Program-made: the position numbers and the translations under genes
From: Candidatus Moraniibacteriota bacterium
Lineage (GTDB): Bacteria; Patescibacteriota; Minisyncoccia; Moranbacterales; UBA1568
Direction: 5' to 3'
Assembly: GCA_023261695.1 (NCBI GenBank)
Contig: JAHFON010000008.1
Coordinates: 1-39,132 of the forward strand
DNA: 39,132 nucleotides
The notes under the pieces: model-generated
What the model was told of the DNA's origin: nothing
What the model saw: the letters and a program-made list of their open reading frames with translations, nothing else
Database searches by the model: none
Shown: piece by piece, positions 1,269-13,172 of the stretch
How positions within the stretch are numbered: position 1 is the stretch's first letter
Layout: every line of letters starts with the position of its first letter

Positions 1269-1712
1269 CTATAAAAACCCGCGCCTTATAATGATTTCCC
1301 TCTCATTTTCTTCTTTAGAAATGAAATTTATACAAATGGCTTCACGCGAGATCAGATTTTTCACGCGCTCCGGCCACTCCAGAAGTACAACGCCTCGTTG
1401 GTCCGCGCACCATTCCGTGAAACCGATAGCTGTCAAATCTGGAGCTGACACACGATACGCGTCAACGTGGTAGACGCGTTCTATACCGTTAACCGGCGCG
1501 GGTAAATCGTACTGTTTCATAATCACAAATGTCGGACTAGTATAAGGACGAGTGGCGCCCAGACTTTCTAAAAAACCTTGCACGAAAGTCGTTTTGCCAG
1601 CTCCCAAATCTCCGGACAAACACACCAGCGCGCCCTGGCGAATTTCTCGCGCCAATTTTTTCCCGAGGTTTCTCGTCTCTTCGGCAGAGTGAGTCAGAAA
1701 AGTTTTCGGCAT
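1269..1712 (-). CDS. tsaE: tRNA threonylcarbamoyladenosine biosynthesis ATPase TsaE
   Basis: A 147-residue P-loop protein of the TsaE family, which works with TsaB and TsaD to make the t6A37 modification on ANN-decoding tRNAs. The Walker A motif GDLGAGKTT lies at residues 34-42. It is followed by YTSPTFVIMKQY, the family's conserved SPT(F/Y) segment, and HVDAYRVSAPDLTAIGF. The ATG at 1710-1712 gives the usual MPKTF-like start; an in-frame ATG seven codons upstream would lengthen the overlap with the neighbouring gene and is less likely. The start overlaps the 3' end of the upstream gene by 19 bases, suggesting coupled translation. tsaB and tsaD are not in the window. Confidence 0.93.
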   Translation of the reverse strand: MPKTFLTHSAEETRNLGKKLAREIRQGALVCLSGDLGAGKTTFVQGFLESLGATRPYTSPTFVIMKQYDLPAPVNGIERVYHVDAYRVSAPDLTAIGFTEWCADQRGVVLLEWPERVKNLISREAICINFISKEENEREIIIRRGFL

Positions 1713-2059
1713 AAATAAATTTCGATAGCCCATCCATACTCTTGCGATAAATTAGCTAAATAAGTGGATGCTTGTGATGATGACATTTTATGTGGCAATA
1801 TGCATTGAAATTGGCAATTGCCAACCCAGGTAAAACCAAGCTTATTAAATAAGCTGTATTCCAATATATTTTCCGCTTCTGAATACTCTGTATATCCGGA
1901 AGCTTGGCTATTTCCCGACCAGTCACTAATTCCAATTGTGCAATAATAAGCTTCATTTGTTTCAGCTCCAACTGTTAGCTCGGCAGTAAAAGAAAGCGCC
2001 ACCGCATCATTCCGGGAAAAATCATCGCCATATTCATTTTTTGTGATTATAAGATTCAT
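1694..2059 (-). CDS. Small acidic protein of unknown function
   Basis: A 121-residue protein I do not recognise. It is acidic, has no signal peptide or membrane segment, and predicts as mixed alpha/beta with aromatic residues near the centre (YYCTIGISDWSG, FTWVGNCQFQC). Size, charge and strand-rich N-terminus recall contact-dependent immunity proteins such as the Imm8 group, but no diagnostic motif is present, so this is only a guess. It has its own strong, nearly leaderless promoter (2067-2095) and overlaps tsaE by 19 bases, so tsaE is probably expressed from it. It starts at the island boundary and may be part of the accessory cargo. Confidence 0.6.
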   Translation of the reverse strand: MNLIITKNEYGDDFSRNDAVALSFTAELTVGAETNEAYYCTIGISDWSGNSQASGYTEYSEAENILEYSLFNKLGFTWVGNCQFQCILPHKMSSSQASTYLANLSQEYGWAIEIYLCRKLF

Positions 2060-2066
2060 ACCTCAT

Positions 2067-2095
2067 AGTATAAAAGATTAAAGGTCATTTGTCAA
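2067..2095 (-). promoter_or_regulatory. Promoter for the small acidic gene and tsaE
   Basis: Read on the minus strand, TTGACA (2095-2090), exactly 17 bases, then TATACT (2072-2067): a near-perfect sigma70-type promoter. The start codon at 2059 would lie only about one to three bases after the expected transcription start, so the mRNA is close to leaderless. Confidence 0.7.
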
Positions 2096-2124
2096 TGTTG
2101 GCTTACTTGAAACATTTTCCTGAC

Positions 2125-2133
2125 TTATCCACA
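2125..2133 (+). promoter_or_regulatory. Perfect DnaA-box sequence upstream of the LexA-like operon
   Basis: TTATCCACA matches the strict DnaA box. It lies between two divergent promoters, about 11 bases upstream of the -35 box of the eight-gene operon and about 25 kb from the likely origin. An isolated box can regulate transcription, but a single 9-mer can also occur by chance. Confidence 0.4.
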
Positions 2134-2143
2134 GGTGCAGTTA

Positions 2144-2172
2144 TTGACTTAAGACTATTTGTTCGGTATTAT
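2144..2172 (+). promoter_or_regulatory. Promoter of the LexA-like / Ntn hydrolase / restriction-modification operon
   Basis: TTGACT (2144-2149), a 17-base spacer and TATTAT (2167-2172). The ATG at 2181 is only 8 bases after the -10 box, so the transcript is close to leaderless. No comparably good promoter was noticed between the following genes, which are separated by 1 to 27 bases, so this is the likely promoter for the run up to 7374. Confidence 0.62.
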
Positions 2173-2180
2173 TTAGACAT

Positions 2181-2555
2181 ATGAAACAGATTACAAATCG
2201 ACAAAGGGAAGTTTTAAATGAGATTTATAATTTAACTCAACGGGGATTGCCACCGACTTTTGCCGAACTTAGAAAAAAATTAGGCATTTCTTCAAATCAA
2301 ACTATTAAAGATTTTATCATTGCTCTTTCTGTTAAGGGATATGTCAAACAAGAGAGTCGCAAAGCGAGAGCAATTATGATTAGTGAAAAGGGGTTTGAGG
2401 AAATTAATGATTCTAATAAAGAAACTAAATTTATTCCTGATTTCAATCCTATTGCAAGTCAGTCTTTAGGTAAATCATTTCAAGATTTAAACAATAGTTC
2501 AAGTTTTTCGGAGAATACACATGAATATAATAATCCGTTAAAATTTAATTACTAA
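2181..2555 (+). CDS. LexA-type winged-helix DNA-binding protein lacking the S24 peptidase
   Basis: A 124-residue protein. Residues 3-68 match the LexA N-terminal domain: TNRQREVLNEIYNLTQRGLP, then PPTFAELRKKLGISSNQTIKD (recognition helix region), then LSVKGYVKQESRKARAIMI (wing). In true LexA the autocleavage peptidase with its Ser-Lys dyad follows. Here the rest is about 50 polar, Asn/Ser-rich residues with no peptidase motif, and the protein stops. It should bind DNA but not self-cleave. It is the first gene of a packed operon and is probably its regulator, analogous to restriction-modification controller proteins. Its operator was not identified. The next gene starts 13 bases after its stop. 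Confidence 0.8.
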   Translation: MKQITNRQREVLNEIYNLTQRGLPPTFAELRKKLGISSNQTIKDFIIALSVKGYVKQESRKARAIMISEKGFEEINDSNKETKFIPDFNPIASQSLGKSFQDLNNSSSFSENTHEYNNPLKFNY

Positions 2556-2568
2556 TTTCTCAAAAATT

Positions 2569-3495
2569 ATGTCATTAGCAATAAACACAACGACCCCGGA
2601 GGGTATTGTTTTGGCAGCTGACAGTCGACAATCATATCGAAACAGGAAAGGCGTTTCGCGAATCGGTTCGGACGCCGCAACAAAACTATTTTTAATAAAC
2701 AATAGAATCGGAGTTGCGGTAACTGGCCTGGCATTTTTGCAAGAAAATGGCATTCCGAAAAACATCAGCAAGTTTATTGAACAATTCAAAAGAGAGGTGG
2801 ATGTGGAAAATTTATCAGTTAAAGATGTGGCGAAAAAATTACATTACATTTTTGACAAAAGATTGAATTGGCAAGAACAATTGGAAAAATTGCCGGAACA
2901 GATTAAAACTAATTTCAAAAATCAAGGTCTGGAAATTACGGAAATAAACAAAGAACAGTATGACTTAAAATTTAAATTTAAAGATCAATCGGGAAATGTT
3001 AAAGATGGCGTGGCGGGAATTGATGGGCTGGTTTTATTCGTTGCCGGATATAACGCAGATGGTTCTCATGAAGTTTATAATGTATATGTGCCTGGTGAAA
3101 TTATAAAAAGACGCGATAGCAATCAGAAAGGTATAGAATATGGCGCCAATTGGATTGGACAGACTGATGTGGTGTCAAGAATTGTAAAAGGTTGGGATCC
3201 AAGAATTTTAAATGCTCCTTTTGTGAGTGAAGCTACAAAACAAAAAGGACAGCCAGAAGTTGAAAAACAGCTTAATGGATTGGAATACGCAATTAATTGG
3301 GGCGCTATGACCTTGCAAGACGCAGTTGATTTTACTGTTCTTGCTATTCAAACAACCTCGGCGATGCAAAGATTTTCCGATGGCATCCAAGCTGATCCTG
3401 GCGATATGCCAGGCGTGGGCGGACCAGTGGATGTTTTGGTTATTATGCCAGATGGTCCGAAATGGATTCAGAAAAAGGAGTTAATAGTTGAATAA
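2569..3495 (+). CDS. Stand-alone proteasome-fold Ntn hydrolase with predicted Ser2 nucleophile
   Basis: A 308-residue protein with the proteasome beta/Anbu pattern. GIVLAADSR (12-20) aligns with the strand and turn carrying Asp17 of proteasome beta subunits, making Asp18 the equivalent. TKLF (38-41) matches the KLF segment with catalytic Lys33, giving Lys39. VAVTGLAF matches the Gly47 strand. GLVLFVAGYNADGSHEVYNV matches the second sheet, and MTLQDAVDFTVLAI followed by GVGGPVDVLVI (282-292) matches the C-terminal half. By register, mature residue 1 is Ser2, which would be exposed by methionine removal; no propeptide is present. Canonical proteasomes use Thr. There is an insertion of about 60 residues (roughly 95-150), and no ATPase partner is nearby. 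Fold assignment is confident; activity and substrate are unknown. It follows a LexA-type regulator and precedes an unknown and a membrane protein. Confidence 0.8.
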   Translation: MSLAINTTTPEGIVLAADSRQSYRNRKGVSRIGSDAATKLFLINNRIGVAVTGLAFLQENGIPKNISKFIEQFKREVDVENLSVKDVAKKLHYIFDKRLNWQEQLEKLPEQIKTNFKNQGLEITEINKEQYDLKFKFKDQSGNVKDGVAGIDGLVLFVAGYNADGSHEVYNVYVPGEIIKRRDSNQKGIEYGANWIGQTDVVSRIVKGWDPRILNAPFVSEATKQKGQPEVEKQLNGLEYAINWGAMTLQDAVDFTVLAIQTTSAMQRFSDGIQADPGDMPGVGGPVDVLVIMPDGPKWIQKKELIVE

Positions 3496-3514
3496 AAAAG
3501 TATAAAAAAATATT

Positions 3515-4216
3515 ATGGAAACAAAAATTAGAAAAATTCAAACAGCAATTTTCACAAAGAATTTTAATATTTCGAATGATCTTGATCGCGCTGCTTTGTT
3601 AACTGAAATTAATAATCATGCCGATGCTATTTTTGATGGTGTGCCTACGCAGCTTCCGATTCCTAATGATGTGCCGCCAGAAATTCCGAGATTTATATTA
3701 AACAGTGCTGACGGAAGATTCAATTGTCATATTGCGCTTTCCAGAGTAGATATTTTTTATAATGTTCCAGTAGATTATGCCGGAACTTGTGAAGAATTAT
3801 TCGAAACGCAGCGAACAAATATTCAGAATATCTTTACTTTTTTAGTCGGTAAAGACATCGTCGTGAATCGTATTGGATTTATTACAATTGCTGAAGAAAT
3901 ATTGGAATCAGCAGATGGCAGCGGCCTTGCTTATTTGAAAGGAAGCTTCATCCAAAGTGATAAATTCAGCAAGCCTAAGGAATTAATATTTAATTACAAT
4001 CGCTCAGGCAGATCGGAAAATTTCGACATGAATAATCTGATTACCGTTAGCGCGAATGAAAAAGTGAACACAAAGATACTATTACAGACAGATATAAATA
4101 CCACTGCTGAAATAATAAACGCTGACACAAATTTTAATGTAGAGAATTTCAATGAAATTATTAATTACGTTGTTAGAGAAACAAAAGGATTTTTGGATGG
4201 TTTTCCAAATATATAA
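3515..4216 (+). CDS. Unknown protein of the Ntn hydrolase cassette
   Basis: A 233-residue soluble protein without signal peptide or membrane helices. The N-terminus (METKIRKIQTAIFTKNFNIS) and a segment PPEIPRFILNSADGRFNCHI are followed by a strand-rich stretch with VVNRIGFITIAEEIL and a C-terminal helix (VENFNEIINYVVRETKGFL). The order 'proline-rich strand, short dG turn, central RIGF strand, C-terminal helix' recalls the sporadically distributed TIGR04255 family, but the match is by layout only and I would not rely on it. It starts 19 bases after the Ntn hydrolase stop and ends 2 bases before the next start, so it is almost certainly co-expressed. It could be a sensor, substrate or inhibitor of the hydrolase. 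Confidence 0.7.
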   Translation: METKIRKIQTAIFTKNFNISNDLDRAALLTEINNHADAIFDGVPTQLPIPNDVPPEIPRFILNSADGRFNCHIALSRVDIFYNVPVDYAGTCEELFETQRTNIQNIFTFLVGKDIVVNRIGFITIAEEILESADGSGLAYLKGSFIQSDKFSKPKELIFNYNRSGRSENFDMNNLITVSANEKVNTKILLQTDINTTAEIINADTNFNVENFNEIINYVVRETKGFLDGFPNI

Positions 4217-4218
4217 TT

Positions 4219-4746
4219 ATGGCTAAGAAAAAAGGACAAAACAATTTAAACCAATCTTTCAGTAACACAGATGCGCCTATTGAATCCTCAGCTGCTACAC
4301 CTCCAGCTCAGCCACTCAACACAGCGGATCAAGCTTTTCAATTAGCAACTTCTAATAAAAAGGAGCTTGATCAGATAAGAGAGGATGCCGATCATCCACA
4401 ATGGGCTAAAGATTTAATAAAATCCCAAGCCTCTTTGAATAGAGTTATTAAAATCAGCTTATGGCTTTGTTTGCTAATTCTTTTGATTTTAATTTTTGCT
4501 TTTGTTTTATTATCAGTGTTTCAAATCAACAATCTCTTTAGTATTTTGGAAGATATAAGAAATAGTGAAAATATGGAAATCAATGCTGATTTATTGGCTC
4601 AATTTAATCAGTTATTTTTTTATTGTAGAAATATTGCAAATTTTCTCGGTTCTATTATAGGTGCATTTGGAATTGTTGGTCTCTTTATGGTTATCATAAT
4701 AAAAGTTTCTGAAAAATTTACGGCTAGCTTTAAAACTAAGAAGTAA
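4219..4746 (+). CDS. Two-helix membrane protein of the Ntn hydrolase cassette
   Basis: A 175-residue protein. The first 55 residues are polar and low in complexity (Asn, Gln, Pro, Ala), followed by a charged helix. A hydrophobic helix lies at about 74-99 (SLWLCLLILLILIFAFVLL), a loop of about 35 residues follows, and a second helix lies at about 140-163 (SIIGAFGIVGLFMVIIIKV). It ends in a basic tail. Two-helix membrane proteins beside regulators or proteases often act as membrane effectors in defence modules, but no family was recognised and this role is inference. It begins 2 bases after the preceding stop. Confidence 0.72.
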   Translation: MAKKKGQNNLNQSFSNTDAPIESSAATPPAQPLNTADQAFQLATSNKKELDQIREDADHPQWAKDLIKSQASLNRVIKISLWLCLLILLILIFAFVLLSVFQINNLFSILEDIRNSENMEINADLLAQFNQLFFYCRNIANFLGSIIGAFGIVGLFMVIIIKVSEKFTASFKTKK

Positions 4747-4773
4747 GCTTGTGAAAATTAAAATCATACAAAT

Positions 4774-5745
4774 ATGACACAAAAAACATTAGAAAATTTT
4801 GCTTTGAAGCTTAATGTGCATCCTATCCATTTAAGGGTGTTTATGTCGAATAATAAAAATATTTCGAGTGAAAATTTGGAATCTGCTTATGCGAACTTTT
4901 CAGATGAAAGCCCAAAGCCATTTGTGAAATGGGTTGGCGGGAAACGACAATTACTGAAACAATTTAGGGACATGAATTTATACCCGCCATTTGGTTTTAA
5001 TCCGGAGACGGCGACTTATTTTGAGCCATTTGTTGGCGGGGGCGCAATGTTTTTTGATTTGCTTCCACAGAGAGCTGCTTTGTCAGATATGAATAATGAA
5101 TTAGTGATTACTTATAACGTTATAAAAACAGATGTTGATTTATTAGTAAAGAAATTAAAAGAGCATCAAAAAAAGAACACTAAAGAATATTTCTTGAAAG
5201 TAAGAGCGCAGGATATAACAAGGCTTTCTGATGTGAATATCGCTGCCCGATTTATTTATTTGAATCGAACTGGATTTAATGGGTTGTATAGAGTGAATAA
5301 TAGTGGTCAATTTAATGTGCCGTTTGGAGACAATAAAAATCCGCTTATTTGTGATGAGAAGAATTTGAAAAAAATACACAGCGCTTTAAAAAATACGAAA
5401 ATTTTGCATCAGGATTATAAAAAAGTTTTAGAAAAAGCTAAGAAGGGAGATTTTGTATATTTCGATCCTCCCTATTATCCGGTCAATAAAACATCAGGCT
5501 TTACGAGTTATACCAAGGAGGGATTTTTAGAAAAGGAGCAGGAGGAATTGCGAAACACATTTGTTGAGCTTAACAAACGCGGATGTTTTGTAATGCTTTC
5601 AAATTCAGATACTAAATTTATAAATGAACTATATTCAGGATTGAGTAGTAAAATAAAAATACATAAAGTGGATGCGTCGCGCGCAATTAATTCTAATGGT
5701 TCCGGCAGGGGAAAAATAAAAGAGGTTGTTATAATAAATTATTAA
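4774..5745 (+). CDS. Dam/DpnM-type DNA adenine-N6 methyltransferase (D12 class)
   Basis: A 323-residue D12-class (alpha-type) adenine methyltransferase that uses S-adenosylmethionine. Motif X/I KWVGGK is at 52-57, EPFVGGG at 84-90, and motif IV DPPY at 231-234, followed by LSNSD (275-279). IYLNRTGFNGLYRVNNSGQFNVPFG (two short stretches of it are diagnostic) is the Dam-family target-recognition neighbourhood. Dam proteins usually begin near the KWxGGK motif; here about 48 extra residues precede it, rich in helix formers. A downstream ATG at residue 24 would shorten this. Sequence specificity is not readable; many relatives methylate GATC. It sits directly before a nuclease and a second methyltransferase. 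Confidence 0.9.
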   Translation: MTQKTLENFALKLNVHPIHLRVFMSNNKNISSENLESAYANFSDESPKPFVKWVGGKRQLLKQFRDMNLYPPFGFNPETATYFEPFVGGGAMFFDLLPQRAALSDMNNELVITYNVIKTDVDLLVKKLKEHQKKNTKEYFLKVRAQDITRLSDVNIAARFIYLNRTGFNGLYRVNNSGQFNVPFGDNKNPLICDEKNLKKIHSALKNTKILHQDYKKVLEKAKKGDFVYFDPPYYPVNKTSGFTSYTKEGFLEKEQEELRNTFVELNKRGCFVMLSNSDTKFINELYSGLSSKIKIHKVDASRAINSNGSGRGKIKEVVIINY

Positions 5746-5766
5746 TTTTTTTAACGAAATAACTTT

Positions 5767-6312
5767 ATGAAAAAAGATGGGATCGGCGGTGCAAATACGC
5801 AAACAGGCATAAATTTTGAGGGAAAAGTGGATTTACTTGAATTTTTAGATAAAAAAATTGAGGGCTATTCTGTTAAAAAAGCCAAGATTGGGCATGAAAT
5901 ATTTTATAATGGAAAAATGGTGGCGCAATCTTTCAGAAAACACGAATTGTATAAATTTCTATTAATCAGAGGAGTTGATTATAGAAAATATTTATCAAAA
6001 AAATTGCTTCCTGACGATGCGATTTATGTTATTAAAGAAAATACGCTTTTTATTATTGAAGTTAAATACCAGCAAGTCGCAGGCTCTGTTGATGAAAAAT
6101 TACAAACATGCGATTTCAAGCTTAAACAGTATAAAAAACTATTTTCAGAATTGAATTACGAAGTTGAGTATATTTATGTTTTAAGCGATTGGTTTAAGGA
6201 TGAAAGATATAAAGATACGTTGGAATATGTTATTGAAGTTGGTTGCAAATATTATTTTGAATATCTGCCTCTTCATAAGATTGGACTTCCAGTTCCCAAA
6301 GAGAGTAAATAA
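5767..6312 (+). CDS. Type II restriction endonuclease, PD-(D/E)XK fold
   Basis: A 181-residue protein between two DNA methyltransferases. The nuclease core is clear: Pro82-Asp83-Asp84, then a hydrophobic strand pair and Glu98-Val99-Lys100 (LFIIEVKYQ), i.e. PD-x(n)-ExK. The N-terminus GIGGANTQTGINFE (5-18) carries a Gly-rich start and a Glu that in several small restriction enzymes contributes to the active site. The C-terminal half (VEYIYVLSDWF, then YFEYLPLHKIG) completes a small alpha/beta fold. Recognition sequence cannot be deduced. It is short for the class but appears intact. It is followed, one base later, by the start of the second methyltransferase. Confidence 0.83.
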   Translation: MKKDGIGGANTQTGINFEGKVDLLEFLDKKIEGYSVKKAKIGHEIFYNGKMVAQSFRKHELYKFLLIRGVDYRKYLSKKLLPDDAIYVIKENTLFIIEVKYQQVAGSVDEKLQTCDFKLKQYKKLFSELNYEVEYIYVLSDWFKDERYKDTLEYVIEVGCKYYFEYLPLHKIGLPVPKESK

Positions 6313-6313
6313 A

Positions 6314-7060
6314 ATGAAAACAGCAATAAAACTTCATCCAGACGAATTTGAATTAGAATGTACTACGGTGTGGTCGTTTCCTCGTCGTGGGAATTGGGCG
6401 ACGCATAAACCGGATTGGCGTGGCAATTGGGCGCCTGAAATTGTTCGAAATTTAATTTTGCGTTATTCAAAAGAAAAAGATCATCTGCTTGATTGTATGA
6501 TTGGTGGTGGCACAACTGCGATTGAAGCCAAAATTTTAAATCGTCACATCACCTGCATTGATGTTAATGAAGAAGCGTTAAAACAAACAAAGAAAGCTTT
6601 GGAATTTAAAGTTGGAAATGGCGCCAAACAAAGAGTGATCAAATGTGACGCGCGCAACATGGCTTTTATTAAAAACGAAGAAATAGATTTTATTTTAACT
6701 CATCCGCCTTATGTGGATATTATAAAATATAGCGAAGGCAAAATTAAAGAAGACTTGTCCGGCATTCATAGCATTGATGACTTTTGTAATGAAATGGAAA
6801 GGGTTGCAAGTGAATTGTATCGAGTTTTGAAAAAAGGAAAATATTGTGCAATCTTAATGGGCGATACTAGAAGAAATAAAATGTATCAACCATTAGCATT
6901 CAAAGTTATGGAAAGATTTCTAAGACAAGGGTTTGTGTTAAAAGAAGATATTATTAAAAGACAGCATAATTGCAAAGCAACTGGATTTTGGGTAAACAAA
7001 TCAAAAGAAAGCAATTTTCTTTTGATAATGCACGAGCATCTTTTTGTTTTTCAAAAATAA
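6314..7060 (+). CDS. DNA methyltransferase, N4-cytosine/N6-adenine type
   Basis: A 248-residue methyltransferase. The start at 6314 follows the nuclease stop by one base; an in-frame upstream start would overlap that gene by over 100 bases and is rejected. The SAM-binding motif DCMIGGGTT is at 60-68 and the catalytic motif IV THPPY at 129-133. An N-terminal segment TTVWSFPRRGNWATHKPDW and RGNWAPEIVRNLILRYS are typical of the N4/N6 methylase family (Pfam N6_N4_Mtase). Motif I precedes motif IV and there is no large target domain. Together with the D12 enzyme it probably protects both strands or both states of the site cut by the nuclease. Confidence 0.87.
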   Translation: MKTAIKLHPDEFELECTTVWSFPRRGNWATHKPDWRGNWAPEIVRNLILRYSKEKDHLLDCMIGGGTTAIEAKILNRHITCIDVNEEALKQTKKALEFKVGNGAKQRVIKCDARNMAFIKNEEIDFILTHPPYVDIIKYSEGKIKEDLSGIHSIDDFCNEMERVASELYRVLKKGKYCAILMGDTRRNKMYQPLAFKVMERFLRQGFVLKEDIIKRQHNCKATGFWVNKSKESNFLLIMHEHLFVFQK

Positions 7061-7086
7061 TTTATTTGAAAAGCAAATTTAAATTC

Positions 7087-7374
7087 ATGGAAACAAAACA
7101 AGAAATTTTAGAAAGGCGGAGAGAAATTGATGGCGAGATTTTGGAAATGCTGATGGAGACAAAAAGCAATTTTGAGTTGCAAGATGTCAAAGACGCAATT
7201 TACAATGAAGAGAAGCAGGATGATTTCATGGATATGGTGGCGGTGTTTGATCGCGGCGGGGACGCTTCGGAATTGAGCAATGTTTTGGAACTTGTTACTG
7301 ACACCTGGAATTATTTTCCGCATAAAGCCTTGGGTGGTATTTCTCCGGCGGAACAAACCTTGGCACGTCAGTAA
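7087..7374 (+). CDS. Small conserved-looking protein of unknown function
   Basis: A 95-residue acidic protein starting at the ATG at 7087, 26 bases after the methyltransferase stop. The N-terminal half is a charged helical region (EILERRREIDGEILEMLME). The C-terminal half ends in WNYFPHKALGGISPAEQ. This 'WN..PH..LGG.SP.E' ending is seen in several families that carry a short C-terminal helix-turn motif, including plasmid pRiA4b ORF-3-like proteins, but no full domain is recognised. It appears to be the last intact gene of the operon that begins at 2181. Start choice is based on the ATG that restores normal operon spacing. Confidence 0.68.
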   Translation: METKQEILERRREIDGEILEMLMETKSNFELQDVKDAIYNEEKQDDFMDMVAVFDRGGDASELSNVLELVTDTWNYFPHKALGGISPAEQTLARQ

Positions 7375-7386
7375 AAAAACAAGCTT

Positions 7387-7854
7387 ATGACAACATTTAT
7401 TGAGATGTTCAATACTATTTTAACGCAGACAAAGTCGCCAGCCGAAAGGTGGTCCAGGAAGTACGGAAATTTCTATATAGATCGCATAGCGGCAAGAATG
7501 ATTATGAGGATATTAAAAGCATCATAAATAACGCACCAAACAAGTACTCTGGGATTTCTGAGAATTGACGGCAAGAAAATTTTGTCATAGCGGTATCGGT
7601 TATTTATTATTTGCACGACAAAGAAAGTTGGTCTGAATTTTCTTTTCCCGTGGTTGCTTCGTTTGCTTTGGCATAAAAATGGCAATGTTCGGCACTCCGC
7701 GGTGCGCATGATTGAACATGAGCTCGGTCCATTGACCTATCATCTCCACTGCTCAGGAGAAAAGTCTTCATTTCGAGATATTTCTCCTGAGCAAGCTGAT
7801 TTTATTGTTTCCAGATTATTTGCAGCCTTGCATAATTTGATGAATGATTCATGA
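7387..7854 (+). pseudogene. Broken helical-repeat (HEAT-like) gene
   Basis: No single frame spans this stretch, but joined frames give a coherent protein. The ATG at 7387 reads only six residues before the meaningful frame switches near 7402. That frame then reads ADKVASRKVVQEVRKFLY and NDYEDIKSIINNAPNKYSGI up to an in-frame TGA at 7566-7568. It continues as RQENFVIAVSVIYYLHDKES until about 7648, where a second frame shift leads into LFPWLLRLLWHKNGNVRH, HELGPLTYHL and ISPEQADFIVSRLFAALHNL, ending at 7854. The helix-pair spacing with NGNVRHSAVRMI is HEAT-repeat-like. TGA at 7566 is one base from TGG (Trp). Two frameshifts plus one nonsense codon indicate a decayed gene, or sequencing errors if the assembly is poor here. 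Confidence 0.6.
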
Positions 7855-7975
7855 AAATCCATGTATAAAAAATATGATTCGGGTTTCACTAGAGCTCCAT
7901 TTGACTGATCCAGTCAAATGGAGCTCTAACTTTATTCTTTTCCTACTTAATTTTGACAATCGGATACATGGATTT
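7855..7975. repeat. Nested inverted repeats at the island edge
   Basis: An outer 12-base inverted repeat (AAATCCATGTAT at 7855-7866, ATACATGGATTT at 7964-7975) encloses a perfect inner hairpin. The inner arms are 18 bases, 7890-7907 and 7911-7928, with a 3-base loop; each arm contains GAGCTC. The segment is not followed by a clean U-tract (only ACTTTATTCTTTT), so it could be a bidirectional terminator for the operon and broken gene, or the remnant of a small mobile element. Nothing else is seen between 7855 and 8089. Confidence 0.6.
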
Positions 7976-8089
7976 GACACCCGATTTTTTCTCTGCTACG
8001 TTGGACTATCCGTCTTTTGAAAGGTTTAGGCTTTGATTGTCGGGTTTTCACTTACGTTTTTTACTTTTTGATTTTTGACTTTCCGCTGT

Positions 8090-9232
8090 ATGTCCCTCAC
8101 TCCCGTCCAGCAATTCCAGGAACTCTTGAAAAAAACTGCCGCACCGCTGATCCTCATTCCCGCATATCCGAGCCGCGACGCGCTTGCCAGCTCTTTCGCT
8201 TTAGCTATTTTCCTCAAAAACGCTGGCAAACCCGTCACACTAGCCGGGGAACATCTCAATACAGACAAAGAGGTTCTGGATTTTCTCACGCAACCAGAAA
8301 ACATTCTCGCTTCCATTTCCGGCGCGCGGGATTTCGTACTCACTTTCAACACGGAGCGCAATAGAATCCTCAACGTGCGCACGGAAAAAACGGATGAAGA
8401 ATTGCGCATTTATCTCACGCCGGAAAACGGTTCCATTGATCCGCGTGATTTCTCTTTCATCCCCGCGCAATTCAAATTTGATTTGGTCATCGTCATCGGC
8501 TCTCCCGACAAGGAATCTCTGGGCAAAATATACGAAGCCAATCCTGATATTTTTTATGAAGTGCCTTTGGTGAATATTGATAACCACTCCGAGAACGAAT
8601 TGTTCGGGCAGGTGAATCTCGTGGATATCACGGCCTCGTCCAACGCGGAAATTCTCTCGGATGTCATAGAAAAGGCCGCCCCCAATCTCTCCACGGAAAG
8701 TGTGAATGAGGCCCTGCTTACGGGCATCATCGCCGCCACCGAAAGTTTCCAAAATCGCAATACGACACCCAAAGCGCTCAAACTCGCTTCGCGTCTGATG
8801 GACGGAGGCGTCGATCAGCAAAAGATTATCCGCGCTCTTTACAAAACGGGGCCGCTCCATCTTCTGAAACTCTGGGGACGAGTGATGGCGCAAATGAAAT
8901 GGAATGAAAATTTGAAGCTCGTCTGGGCAAGCGTTAGCATTGAAGATCTGGTGCAAGCGCGCGCGCGGGTGGAAGATCTGCCGCAGGTGCTGGAAAAGAT
9001 CAAAGCTAATTATTCTTCAGCTCACCTTTTTTTACTTTTGTATTCTGAAGTCAAAGGTGTGGTGCGCGGACTAGCCAAAGCCGTTTCTCCTGAAACTTTA
9101 GCCGGCTTCGCCAAGCACTTTCCGGACGGCGAAGCTCACGGAGACACATTTTCTTTCACAATTAACGCGAGCGATACAGATGAAGCGGAACGCATCGTCA
9201 TCGGCCAGTTAAATGCCAACCCCCAAGCTTAG
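8090..9232 (+). CDS. Degenerate DHH-family (NrnA/RecJ-like) protein
   Basis: A 380-residue protein with the layout of NrnA-type DHH phosphoesterases, enzymes that degrade nanoRNA or cyclic dinucleotides using Mn2+. The expected order is seen: an N-terminal strand followed by PSRDALASSFALAIFLKNAG (normally DxDA(I/L)GS), then LVIVIGSPD, then VNIDNHSEN (normally DHH), then ALLTGIIAATESF and a C-terminal substrate domain. The first Asp of the DxD motif is replaced (PSRDA) and DHH reads DNH, so metal ligands appear to be missing and catalysis is doubtful. The ATG at 8090 begins MSLTPVQQF; an ATG five codons upstream is possible. It ends 137 bases before the pilus ATPase gene, which has its own promoter. 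Confidence 0.75.
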   Translation: MSLTPVQQFQELLKKTAAPLILIPAYPSRDALASSFALAIFLKNAGKPVTLAGEHLNTDKEVLDFLTQPENILASISGARDFVLTFNTERNRILNVRTEKTDEELRIYLTPENGSIDPRDFSFIPAQFKFDLVIVIGSPDKESLGKIYEANPDIFYEVPLVNIDNHSENELFGQVNLVDITASSNAEILSDVIEKAAPNLSTESVNEALLTGIIAATESFQNRNTTPKALKLASRLMDGGVDQQKIIRALYKTGPLHLLKLWGRVMAQMKWNENLKLVWASVSIEDLVQARARVEDLPQVLEKIKANYSSAHLFLLLYSEVKGVVRGLAKAVSPETLAGFAKHFPDGEAHGDTFSFTINASDTDEAERIVIGQLNANPQA

Positions 9233-9369: not shown

Positions 9370-12300
9370 ATGGTTAAGGTGGTCCGCCAAAATCTAACTC
9401 AGGATAACCAAAAAGACGAGCAATCGCAGGCCGTACTGAAAAAGATGCGCGATGTTTCCATTGAGGAGCAGGCCGCGGCGCTCGCCAATCAGCATAGCTT
9501 TTTGTACATTGATCTGAACGTTTTTCCCGTGGATACCGAGGACGTTTTGATAATTCCTGAAACTGAAGCCAAAAAAAACGATCTGGCCCTTTTCAATAAA
9601 AAAGGCGTCTTTGCGCGCTTCGCCATCCTTGACCCAGCCAACCAAAAAACGCTCAAGTACATCCAAAATTTGGCGGATAAGCACGGCTGGCAGATAAAAA
9701 TTTACGTAGTGTCAGCGCCGTCTCTGAAGCGCGCGTGGGAACACTACGCCAAGCGCACCTTCATTGATAACTTGGATCTCGTGCGCGTGTCTCTCAAAGA
9801 CAGCGACTTGCAAAAATTTGAAAAAGATTTTGGAGAACTCATCTCACTCAAAGAAAATCCTTCTCTCAATACTTCGCGGGCAATGGAAATCATTCTCTCC
9901 GGCGCGAGAAAACTCCACGCCAGCGATATTCATCTGGAGCCGACGGAAAAAAGCATCCGCCTGCGCTATCGCATTGACGGCGTACTGCAAGAAATAGGCG
10001 AGCTACCTCTGGAGCTGTACCATTTGCTTAATTCGCGCATCAAAATGATCAGTCAGATGCGTCTTAATCTCCGCAAGATAGCCCAAGACGGGCACTTCTT
10101 CATTGATATTGAAGGCAAGCGCATTGACATACGTGTCAGCAGTATTCCGGGAAAATACGGTGAAAATATCAATATGCGACTGCTGGCGAGCGAGGACGCT
10201 ATCGTGGATGTCGCGACTCTGGGACTGCGCGGCATGGCTTACGAAGAGGTGATGAAGCAGGTGACTAAACCCAACGGCTTCATTTTGAACACAGGTCCCA
10301 CCGGTTCCGGTAAAACCACCACGCTGTACGCGCTTCTCAATCACATCAATAAACCGGAAACCAAAATTATTACGGTTGAAGATCCCATAGAATATACCAT
10401 ACCCGGCATCGTTCAAACCGAAGTATCCAAAAACAAGGACTACACATTCGCCACCGCTCTGCGTTCCATAGTCCGCCAAGATCCGGACGTGATTCTGGTA
10501 GGTGAAATCCGTGATGATGAAACCGCCGACATCACCATTAACGCGGCGCTAACGGGGCATCTGGTTTTATCCACGCTTCACGCCAACAACGCCGCCGCTT
10601 CCGTGCCGCGCCTGATGGAACTTGGCATTAAGCCGGCTCTCATCAGCGCTTCGTTAAACGCTCTCATAGGCCAACGTTTAGTGCGCAAACTCTGTGAGCA
10701 CTGCAAAGAAAAATACAAGCCGGCGAACAAAACTATTGATTCTATTCTGAAACTCGTCACCATTATTTCTCCCAAAGCCGCTATCCTTCTGCCCAAAGAA
10801 ACCGAATATCTCTTCAAAGCCGTCGGGTGTCAGAATTGTTATTTTACCGGATATCACGGCCGCGTGGGAATCTTTGAAGTGCTCACTCTGACCAAAGAAA
10901 TTATGGAGATCATAAATAATCTCGGCACCGAACAAGACATTCTCCGCGCCGCTTTGGAGAATGGTATGGTTACGATGACGCAAGACGGGATACTGAAAGC
11001 GCTAGACGGCATTACCACGCTGGATGAAATCTGGCGCGTGGCTGATCAAACAGACGCTCTGCGCGATATTTACGCCGAACTTATGCCCAGCGAGCTGTCT
11101 CATTCCACCTATATTTCTTCGGCATTGTTGGAAGAAACAAAAAAAGAAATAGCTTCTCTGGAACGTTTCTCTCTCTACGTAGACAAGGTTGACTCACGAT
11201 TGCGCTTGTCCGCGCTCTTTGCCGGAGCACTCCTTCTGCGCGCCAGCGATATACACATTGAACCGACTTCGGATGTCTTTGAAGTGCGTTTCCGCGTGGA
11301 CGGCATTCTTCAAACGGCCGCTCGCTTCCCCATCAATAACTATCTCGCGCTCCTTGCGGAAGTCAAGTTGGCCGCCGGTCTCAAATCAGAGGAACGGCTC
11401 GGTGTTACCGACGGACGTTTTTCTCTCACACTGGAAAACCGACTCAAAGAAAAAACTGATACGGTAGACGTCCGTCTTTCTATAATTTTGAGCGGCTTCG
11501 GCGAAACCATTGTGATGCGATTTTTGAATCAATCCGTGATAAAACTTGATCTTAACGAACTTCACATTCGTGAACAAAATCTCAAAAATATCCTCACGGC
11601 TATCGGCAAACCTTACGGCATTATCTTAAACACCGGTCCCACCGGCTCCGGCAAAACCACCACTTTGTACAGCATTCTAACCAAACTTAACACTCCCGCG
11701 GTAAAAATTATCACAGTGGAAGACCCGATAGAGTACCAGTTGGCAGGGATTATCCAAACTCAAGTCAAAGAAAACGAGAATTACACTTTCGCAACCGCCT
11801 TGCGCTCTCTTCTGCGTCAGAACCCCGATATCTTGATGATCGGAGAAATCCGTGACGAAGAAACGGCGCAGATAGCCATCCAAGCGGCCAATACCGGACA
11901 CTTGGTACTCTCCACGCTCCACACCAATTCAGCCGCCGGCGTTGTTTCCCGCCTCACGGCTATGGGTGTCGGCAATGACGATCTGGCCAACGCCGCCAAC
12001 CTTTTTATATCCCAGCGTCTGGTGCGCAAAATCTGTGAACACTGCAAAACTTCCTCGCCGGCCACGTCAGATGAGAAAGAAATTATTGAAAAAGCGCTTG
12101 GCTCTTTACCACAAAAAAATAAGCTCCCAAAAAAACTGCAGATTTCCCACAACAAAGGTTGTCAGTCCTGCAATGGCACCGGCTTCGCCGGACAGATCGC
12201 CCTATCTGAAACACTTCTAGTCAACAAAAAAATTTCTGAATTGATCGCGCGCGGCGCACTCGTGAGCGACATTCAAGAAAGTGCCGTCGCCAACGGTATG

Positions 12301-12384
12301 CTCACGCTCGTCCAAGACGGTATCCTGGCGGTTTTGGAAGGACTGACCACATTGGAGGAAGTAGAGCGCGTGACAGACTTGTAA
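9370..12384 (+). CDS. pilB: Tandem PilB/GspE-type pilus assembly ATPase (two ATPase modules in one chain)
   Basis: A 1004-residue protein made of two secretion/pilus-extension ATPases joined end to end. Residues about 20-160 are a GspE/MshE N-terminal domain. Module 1 has the N2 segment ASDIHLEPTEKSIRLRYRIDG, Walker A GPTGSGKTTTLY (from about 309), Walker B DPDVILVGEIRD and a zinc-binding CEHC/CQNC pair. Module 2 repeats this without a second N-terminal domain: ASDIHIEPTSD, Walker A from about 756, Walker B NPDILMIGEIRD, CEHC/CQSC. All catalytic motifs look intact in both. PilB normally has about 560 residues and works as a hexamer, so this chain could form a trimer of pseudo-dimers. It powers type IV pilus or competence-pilus assembly at the inner membrane. 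No pilC, pilM or pilin gene is adjacent. Confidence 0.93.
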   Translation: MVKVVRQNLTQDNQKDEQSQAVLKKMRDVSIEEQAAALANQHSFLYIDLNVFPVDTEDVLIIPETEAKKNDLALFNKKGVFARFAILDPANQKTLKYIQNLADKHGWQIKIYVVSAPSLKRAWEHYAKRTFIDNLDLVRVSLKDSDLQKFEKDFGELISLKENPSLNTSRAMEIILSGARKLHASDIHLEPTEKSIRLRYRIDGVLQEIGELPLELYHLLNSRIKMISQMRLNLRKIAQDGHFFIDIEGKRIDIRVSSIPGKYGENINMRLLASEDAIVDVATLGLRGMAYEEVMKQVTKPNGFILNTGPTGSGKTTTLYALLNHINKPETKIITVEDPIEYTIPGIVQTEVSKNKDYTFATALRSIVRQDPDVILVGEIRDDETADITINAALTGHLVLSTLHANNAAASVPRLMELGIKPALISASLNALIGQRLVRKLCEHCKEKYKPANKTIDSILKLVTIISPKAAILLPKETEYLFKAVGCQNCYFTGYHGRVGIFEVLTLTKEIMEIINNLGTEQDILRAALENGMVTMTQDGILKALDGITTLDEIWRVADQTDALRDIYAELMPSELSHSTYISSALLEETKKEIASLERFSLYVDKVDSRLRLSALFAGALLLRASDIHIEPTSDVFEVRFRVDGILQTAARFPINNYLALLAEVKLAAGLKSEERLGVTDGRFSLTLENRLKEKTDTVDVRLSIILSGFGETIVMRFLNQSVIKLDLNELHIREQNLKNILTAIGKPYGIILNTGPTGSGKTTTLYSILTKLNTPAVKIITVEDPIEYQLAGIIQTQVKENENYTFATALRSLLRQNPDILMIGEIRDEETAQIAIQAANTGHLVLSTLHTNSAAGVVSRLTAMGVGNDDLANAANLFISQRLVRKICEHCKTSSPATSDEKEIIEKALGSLPQKNKLPKKLQISHNKGCQSCNGTGFAGQIALSETLLVNKKISELIARGALVSDIQESAVANGMLTLVQDGILAVLEGLTTLEEVERVTDL

Positions 12385-12391
12385 AAAAGTT

Positions 12392-12427
12392 AAAAGCCAA
12401 GAGCGCTGTTCCGCTCTTGGCTTTTTT
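12392..12427 (+). terminator. Rho-independent terminator after the tandem PilB gene
   Basis: A perfect 14-base stem, AAAAGCCAAGAGCG (12392-12405) and CGCTCTTGGCTTTT (12412-12425), with a 6-base loop and a run of six T. It starts 7 bases after the stop codon. It may also work for the convergent membrane-protein gene that ends at 12469. Confidence 0.92.
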
Positions 12428-12468
12428 CCTTTCTACATCGTCCTCCCTCCTTATTTCCCCACAGTCTA

Positions 12469-12945
12469 CTACGTGGCTGTGTCTGTGGTGCCAGATATGA
12501 GAACAACGGACTTTAGCTCTCCGTTCGTGTAGGTTATTTCCACCCTTGCGCGGAACTTTCTATCGCCCAGGACGGGCACCTGCCTCTTGTCCACCCCGCT
12601 GGCTATCCTCTTCATCACTCTTTTCTCTCCAAAAATAACAGAGAATTTCACCAATATGACACCGATAACAACCAGCCATATGAAACCGATAACAAATACC
12701 TTGTAACCGAAACTGCTAACAAATATCCGCCACTCTGAAGAATTAATCAGAAACACTGATGACTCCCGATCCACTGCAGCGAGGACGGAGAAAATCACCA
12801 CCAAACAGGCACAGACAACCAAAAAGATGTAATAACCCCAGGGCACACCATCTGGCTCAACCGCTTGACAGAATCGCTTAAAAGTACCAATACAAACCAG
12901 AGTAAATACTCCCGCCACAACAATCCACAATAACGTTGAGTTCAT
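12469..12945 (-). CDS. Three-helix membrane protein of unknown function
   Basis: A 158-residue protein with hydrophobic segments at about 4-21 (LLWIVVAGVFTLVCIG), 38-57 (YYIFLVVCACLVVIFSVLAA) and 83-103 (VFVIGFIWLVVIGVILVKF), followed by a basic soluble tail of about 50 residues. The tail has alternating charged and hydrophobic residues (KFRARVEITYTNGELKSVVLI), suggesting a small beta domain on the cytoplasmic side. No family was recognised. A purine-rich AAGGGGGG lies about 5 bases upstream of the ATG, the clearest Shine-Dalgarno-like site noticed in the window. It stands alone between a terminator and a structured intergenic region. Confidence 0.72.
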   Translation of the reverse strand: MNSTLLWIVVAGVFTLVCIGTFKRFCQAVEPDGVPWGYYIFLVVCACLVVIFSVLAAVDRESSVFLINSSEWRIFVSSFGYKVFVIGFIWLVVIGVILVKFSVIFGEKRVMKRIASGVDKRQVPVLGDRKFRARVEITYTNGELKSVVLISGTTDTAT

Positions 12946-13017
12946 TTGTCCCCCCTTTTTTGTTCGTTAATTGTTATTGTTAACCAAATTATTAAAGACC
13001 TTCTTAATACTACTACC

Positions 13018-13172
13018 GCTTCAACTGTAGACAATCCCCGAACATAGGAGTCTGGGGAAAGGAAAAGTGTCGAGGTATAGCGCAGTCGAAACCACCCTAC
13101 CCAAATCTAAACAAACGGTTCCGCGATTGAGGACAAAAGATAGTGGCCCCCAATTATGTCTACAGGTGAAGC
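13018..13172. other. Candidate structured RNA in a 398-base gene-free stretch
   Basis: The gene-free stretch 12946-13343 contains a long-range pairing that encloses about 120 bases. GCTTCA (13018-13023) and CTGTAGACA (13025-13033) pair with TGTCTACAG (13157-13165) and TGAAGC (13167-13172), giving 15 base pairs with one A/G mismatch. Inside, TCCCC (13035-13039) can pair with GGGGA (13054-13058). A terminal stem closing an irregular interior is the layout of several bacterial RNAs such as 6S RNA, but no diagnostic motif of 6S, tmRNA, SRP RNA or RNase P RNA was found. Strand is undetermined. A 64-codon reading frame crosses the region and looks non-coding. The rest of the stretch shows only a weak promoter-like sequence near 13277-13301 before ruvB. 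Confidence 0.4.

Follow-up and report, generated by a model that had tools for sequence, protein, structure and literature searches.

A proteasome-fold hydrolase with a predicted serine nucleophile accompanies a LexA-type winged-helix gene and diverse restriction-modification systems

What does a stand-alone relative of the proteasome do among restriction-modification (R-M) genes, and with which partner? The question is raised by a gene in the window, a 39,132-nt stretch from a Candidatus Moraniibacteriota bacterium that forms one contig of an 860-kb genome. The gene starts with ATG 13 nt downstream of the open reading frame for a small winged-helix protein (Table 1), and the nearest homologues of its product come from Moranbacteria-type Patescibacteria. 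A sequence-only reading had proposed that this product is a proteasome-fold hydrolase with a serine nucleophile, encoded in a defence-type operon.

The proteasome family in Pfam, PF00227, matched residues 9-55 of the hydrolase with an E value of 1.7e-5 (25.0 bits against a gathering cut-off of 22.4), and 16 of its 19 homologues matched the family individually. NCBIfam returned nothing beyond a sub-threshold match to the archaeal beta subunit, and a sequence search of the PDB found proteasome chains at E 0.16 or worse. A structure was therefore needed. We built an AlphaFold2 model from the 19 homologues, with a mean pLDDT of 80.4 and a pTM of 0.77; residues 21-33 and 271-282 were unsure. Using Foldseek against the PDB, the best matches were proteasome subunits (E about 1e-6, probability 1.00). 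VIA-align superposed 188 residues on the beta subunit of M. jannaschii with a Z of 18.4 and an rmsd of 3.0, and the Anbu chains reached Z 17.2-17.6. In most of these alignments, model residue 2 stood at the start, on mature residue 1. The proposed fold thus held both in Pfam and in the superposition that had been suggested as its check. A fold search of BFVD with the model gave no significant match. PADLOC had no credible model for the hydrolase, and we discounted its hits to PDC-S19 (0.0011), Chlamy_scaf and TBP-TOTE, which were weak, partial and confined to the helical or insert part.

Columns that were invariant in the 19 homologues were M1, S2, A16, D18, S19, R20, Q21, S34, D35, K39, F41, G53 and G160. 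Four of them, Ser2, Asp18, Lys39 and Gly53, are the equivalents of Thr1, Asp17, Lys33 and Gly47, with Gly53 assigned to the oxyanion glycine by sequence position. This bears out the earlier placement of Ser2 at the catalytic threonine position as the predicted nucleophile, together with Asp18 and with Lys39 in the role of Lys33. Every complete homologue had an in-frame stop 1 to 28 codons upstream of M1, which implies that the hydrolase has no propeptide, as had been read from the window. In several homologues, M1 was also preceded at suitable spacing by a Shine-Dalgarno-like sequence (e.g., AGGAGG in L013 and GGAGG in L016). A penultimate serine leads to removal of Met1 by methionine aminopeptidase. 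The dN/dS of the hydrolase against four relatives was 0.03-0.07 with synonymous sites near saturation, a value that points to purifying selection.

Residue 2 was serine in all homologues of the hydrolase clade in which the start was present. More distant homologues had threonine at this position in six cases (L064, L068 and L115-L118) and serine in L119 and L130. The homologue tree required two Ser/Thr changes, although its long branches leave deep placements unsure. Position 2 had been set beforehand as the place where homologues could refute the reading, and solely Ser or Thr was found there. What did not survive was the implied novelty of the serine. A serine nucleophile has been reported for BPH outside Betaproteobacteria, for CodW and for one Anbu (PMC5777263), and the catalytic residue of proteasome homologues has been given as Thr1/Ser1 (PMC8665760).

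The sequence-only reading had also noted an insertion of about 60 residues. The extra sequence is present, but as two inserts rather than one. Compared to the short-form homologues L034 and L035, the hydrolase has 50 additional residues (104-153) after model helix 84-99, the H1/H2 or pore-loop site, and 21 more (217-237) between model helices 200-207 and 249-274, the H3/H4 site. The 22 new proteasome homologues of Fuchs, Alva and Lupas (2021) lack propeptides and recognised AAA+ partners; among them, PMI-3 and PMI-4 carry both a long insert that follows H1/H2 and a further one between H3/H4 (PMC8665760). The authors suggested that such inserts would block ring stacking or form a cap, and they reported no genomic context pointing to a specific function (PMC8665760). 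Since the hydrolase has inserts at both sites, membership in PMI-3 or PMI-4 is the likely assignment, judged by the published insert positions. It shares with these families the fold, the Thr1/Ser1-Asp17-Lys33-Gly47 set, the lack of a propeptide and of an AAA+ partner, both inserts and a scattered occurrence in bacteria. It departs from them in context, which was not suggestive in the published survey and here consists of a LexA-type partner and a linkage to R-M genes. Taken together, we are confident that the protein combines a proteasome fold, a Ser/Asp/Lys/Gly catalytic set and PMI-like inserts. The earlier reading was right in its main points and less novel than thought, as this kind of hydrolase is already described but poorly studied.

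Other members of the superfamily fit less well. Some BPH and CodW proteins share the N-terminal serine nucleophile, and BPH likewise lacks a propeptide and is not known to have an ATPase (PMC5777263). However, BPH assembles compact subunits into a double ring, whereas the hydrolase has two inserts, and CodW (HslV) needs the ATPase CodX. The island around the hydrolase contains no ATPase gene, in line with the first reading. Neither the compact, insert-free subunit of HslV and BPH nor the HslU ATPase of HslV was thus found here. We also considered whether the protein is a divergent Anbu. Anbu shares the fold, a candidate catalytic triad and the lack of a known ATPase, and its chains scored within about 1 Z unit of the best match. 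However, this near tie with the archaeal beta subunit means that the fold does not single out Anbu, nearly all Anbu proteins use threonine, and the inserts of the hydrolase are of the PMI-3/PMI-4 type and not those of Anbu. The neighbours differ as well. Consistent with the earlier reading, Pfam found none of the usual Anbu neighbours (transglutaminase, ATP-grasp and alpha-E) near the hydrolase in the window, and none was recognised at the homologue loci inspected. We regard a divergent Anbu as very improbable.

A further alternative is that the hydrolase does not act as a protease. It could instead resemble connectase, as a specific ligase or amidotransferase of proteins, or serve as a scaffold that has no catalytic activity. 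Connectase is indeed a stand-alone member of the family that acts as a ligase (PMC8665760), and YbAnbu and BPH were inert in assays. The invariance of all four catalytic residues argues against a silent scaffold, however, and the connectase-type insertion lies at S3/S4 rather than at the sites used in the hydrolase. A role outside proteolysis seems improbable to us.

The hydrolase gene lies in an island with a GC content of about 0.30-0.38 in its core compared to 0.44-0.51 downstream. The two genes that bound the island, tsaE and a DHH-like gene, adjoin in eight relatives of the same genus or family, whereas they are 6.3 kb apart in the window. No island proteins were found at the tsaE/DHH-like loci of those eight relatives, and no tRNA or direct repeats clearly marking the island ends were found. 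In gene order, a 121-aa open reading frame on the minus strand comes first, and the remaining genes follow as in Table 1. From the winged-helix gene on, they are separated by 13, 19, 2, 27 and 21 nt and then overlap. The methyltransferases and the candidate nuclease downstream of the hydrolase agree with the defence-type operon that had been proposed. The 233-aa protein is otherwise rare beyond L001 and was for that reason not treated as part of the core. Membrane-protein neighbours recur at hydrolase loci, but as membrane proteins are common, we did not use this recurrence as evidence.

Table 1. Features of the window around the hydrolase gene, with their coordinates and the evidence for each
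Feature	Coordinates	Strand	Evidence or remark
Low-GC island between tsaE (1269-1733) and DHH-like gene (8075-9232)	1734..8070		ends approximate
Two-gene module, winged-helix gene and hydrolase	2157..3552	+	single blastn block with L001, 77% identity, 1414 columns
LexA-type winged-helix protein, 124 aa, no S24 peptidase domain	2181..2555	+	PF01726 2.4e-14
Proteasome-fold Ser hydrolase, 308 aa	2569..3495	+	PF00227, AlphaFold2 model, PDB fold matches, invariant catalytic residues
Uncharacterised protein, 233 aa	3515..4216	+	no Pfam match; clusters with L001:8948-9583, same place
Protein with two predicted transmembrane segments, 175 aa	4219..4746	+	hydropathy; no Pfam match above cut-off
Dam-type DNA adenine methyltransferase	4774..5745	+	PF02086 6.7e-62; TIGR00571 dam 1.5e-86; PADLOC MTase_II 5e-98
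Possible PD-(D/E)XK nuclease, candidate restriction enzyme	5767..6312	+	PF20472 2.7e-5, short, barely above cut-off
N6/N4 DNA methyltransferase	6311..7060	+	PF01555 1.6e-23; PADLOC MTase_II 4.5e-90

Three minor features were seen in or near the island. At its downstream end, positions 7890-7928 form a perfect inverted repeat with 18-nt arms and a 3-nt loop, possibly a terminator. A short gene of unknown function at 7081-7382 has 83% DNA identity to L001:10228-10529 and lies on the downstream side of both islands. Between polA and tsaE, positions 693-1220 hold genes for a BrnT-like toxin and a BrnA/CopG-like antitoxin. These are absent from relatives, and in L110 other DNA of about 4.9 kb takes their place, which gives the region the look of an insertion hotspot.

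The closest partner of the hydrolase is the winged-helix gene, whose PF01726 match is the only one in the window's genome. LexA-type winged-helix genes that lack the S24 domain lay directly upstream of the hydrolase gene, on the same strand, at eight loci (the window, L001, L007, L028, L029, L030, L032 and L036), with gaps of -16 to 85 nt. A LexA_DNA_bind match stood beside the hydrolase in 9 of 16 genomes against 0.05 expected at random placement, with related genomes counted as independent. One of these nine, L034, differs: its hydrolase gene is faced by a divergently transcribed gene for a fusion of LexA-S24 and a DNA methyltransferase. The window and L001 carry the pair in different places in related genomes and with different R-M neighbours. 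Thus, the winged-helix gene and the hydrolase gene form a mobile two-gene module.

The winged-helix partners vary at their C termini. We observed a predicted transmembrane segment in L028:9692-10357 (-) and L029:9711-10388 (-) and a long C-terminal domain without assignment in L030:5250-6173 (+). At L032, genes for a reverse transcriptase with an HTH_3 domain and a DUF2779 protein (11903-13123 and 10393-11928, both on the minus strand) lie upstream of the winged-helix gene of the hydrolase.

R-M systems of types I, II and III were found near hydrolase homologues. The neighbours were an EcoRI-type methyltransferase and a GmrSD-HNH protein at L001, a methyltransferase and an HNH nuclease at L003, a TdeIII restriction enzyme at L028, a type III-like Res and methyltransferase at L029, and type I HsdM and HsdR at L030; by clustering, L036 also carries a gene homologous to those of the L030 type I system. 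Of the 16 genomes, 7 had a PF01555 methyltransferase within about 6 kb of the hydrolase, where chance would give 0.65 (P about 1e-7). This is a rough figure given that the genomes are non-independent, that the distances were taken manually and that some contigs are too short to show much of the surroundings. The module was upstream of the R-M genes at some loci but not at all of them. Beside the hydrolase at L007:1118-3019 (-) and L034:9174-10736 (+), we found an N6/N4 DNA methyltransferase in fusion with a complete LexA that has both the winged helix and the S24 peptidase. These fusions tie LexA-type control to these R-M loci; each joins a self-cleaving repressor to a modification enzyme and merits its own study. 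Among openly licensed papers, we found none that connects a proteasome homologue with R-M or with defence islands. What is new here is the repeated association of the hydrolase with a gene for a DNA-binding partner and with R-M systems of many kinds, and this combination offers the first testable function for one proteasome homologue of the surveyed set.

The same linkage could be explained by a dedicated restriction-alleviation protease, which would degrade or clip the restriction enzyme when the host chromosome has unmodified sites and so protect the new host of a mobile island, as ClpXP does with the HsdR of EcoKI (PMC4231737). The occurrence beside types I, II and III in a mobile island would fit such a role. 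However, no unfoldase is encoded with the hydrolase, and the nearby restriction enzymes are mutually unrelated, so that one specific protease would need a feature common to them all. Homologues also occur outside R-M loci. We think restriction alleviation unlikely.

In a separate observation at L064:6544-10229 (-), a proteasome homologue of the Thr type (PF00227 6.9e-20) neighbours an N6/N4 methyltransferase fused to an Mrr-type nuclease domain. The L064 genome also carries a Ser-type homologue, and other sub-families may share the R-M link.

The hydrolase family is rare. It was present in 12 of 380 genomes of a phylum sample, 6 of 384 of a class sample and 11 of 50 of the phylum sample of G381 (Atribacterota). 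The Atribacterota homologues occupy conserved settings that are housekeeping-like and not of the R-M kind, following a small membrane protein or a membrane-anchored TPR protein. They lack the winged-helix partner, as do L002, L004, L005, L027 and L031, which implies that the enzyme can work without it. At L129:1649-4614 (-), a short-form Ser-type homologue adjoins a gene for an NYN-domain protein, a weak AbiEi match and an AbiEii match.

These settings bear on another alternative, in which the hydrolase serves as a defence effector. It would be a protease or amidase that turns on proteins of the host or the phage once infection is sensed; the winged-helix protein would regulate it, and the R-M genes would be neighbours that act independently in a defence island. 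The defence-island setting, the AbiEii and weak AbiEi matches beside L129 and the GmrSD-type and reverse-transcriptase genes near L032 are consistent with an effector. Against this stand the conserved housekeeping-like setting of the Atribacterota orthologues and the lack of a credible PADLOC match, and we consider an effector role rather unlikely.

We tentatively prefer to see the hydrolase as the peptidase half of a pair that controls R-M, with cleavage as our guess. The chemistry follows from the conserved residues and the pairing from gene order. Methionine aminopeptidase would remove Met1 and expose Ser2. Ser2 would then attack an amide bond with the assistance of Lys39 and Asp18 and with Gly53 in the oxyanion hole. 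The two inserts may prevent or reshape ring packing, so that the hydrolase would be a monomer or a small oligomer. It would act, without an AAA+ unfoldase, on a specific substrate chosen by a partner, which in R-M islands is probably the winged-helix protein. That protein would repress or time the R-M operon until a signal, e.g., DNA damage or entry into an unmethylated host, leads the hydrolase to cleave it or another partner.

The control pair is supported by the adjacency at eight loci, the movement of the pair as one block, the R-M neighbours of three types and the LexA-S24-methyltransferase fusions. It is opposed by the partnerless homologues, by a module that is not always upstream of the R-M genes and by the winged-helix tails, in which we saw by eye no conserved cleavage motif. 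In addition, none of the PMI proteins has a known activity, and in vitro assays detected no peptidase activity for BPH or Anbu. There is precedent for a peptidase that cuts a neighbouring repressor in PprI-DdrO (PMC10904395) and in CapH-CapP, and the proposed pair would operate as these two do. Like the module, DdrO-PprI and CapH-CapP consist of a small DNA-binding protein and a peptidase encoded by neighbouring genes, and CapH-CapP lies in defence operons. Their enzymes are metallopeptidases with established repressor cleavage, whereas the enzyme here has a proteasome fold and would cleave its partner with a serine. R-M controllers such as C proteins and RptR (PMC12255303) are also small DNA-binding proteins encoded with an R-M system, but no peptidase partner is described there.

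More broadly, the LexA-type winged-helix protein and the proteasome-fold serine hydrolase could perhaps constitute an undescribed mobile control or quality-control unit for several R-M types. In effect, the module might be a LexA whose cleaving enzyme sits on a separate gene, with a proteasome relative recruited to antiphage immunity, although we put this forward with some doubt. If the hydrolase does cut its winged-helix partner, the proteasome fold would have been recruited for regulated single-substrate proteolysis in immunity, with a serine and without a ring or an unfoldase.

Searches of phage and plasmid records with the hydrolase protein found nothing, and a search of IMG/VR found one short-form homologue, L038. 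On this viral contig, the homologue is close to matches to a head maturation protease and a virion structural protein (L038:2-712 and 1491-3431). The PHROG family phrog_5990, of unknown function, matched the window protein at 8.9e-5, L038 at 4.7e-6 and L064 weakly, and it may represent a proteasome-like hydrolase of phages.
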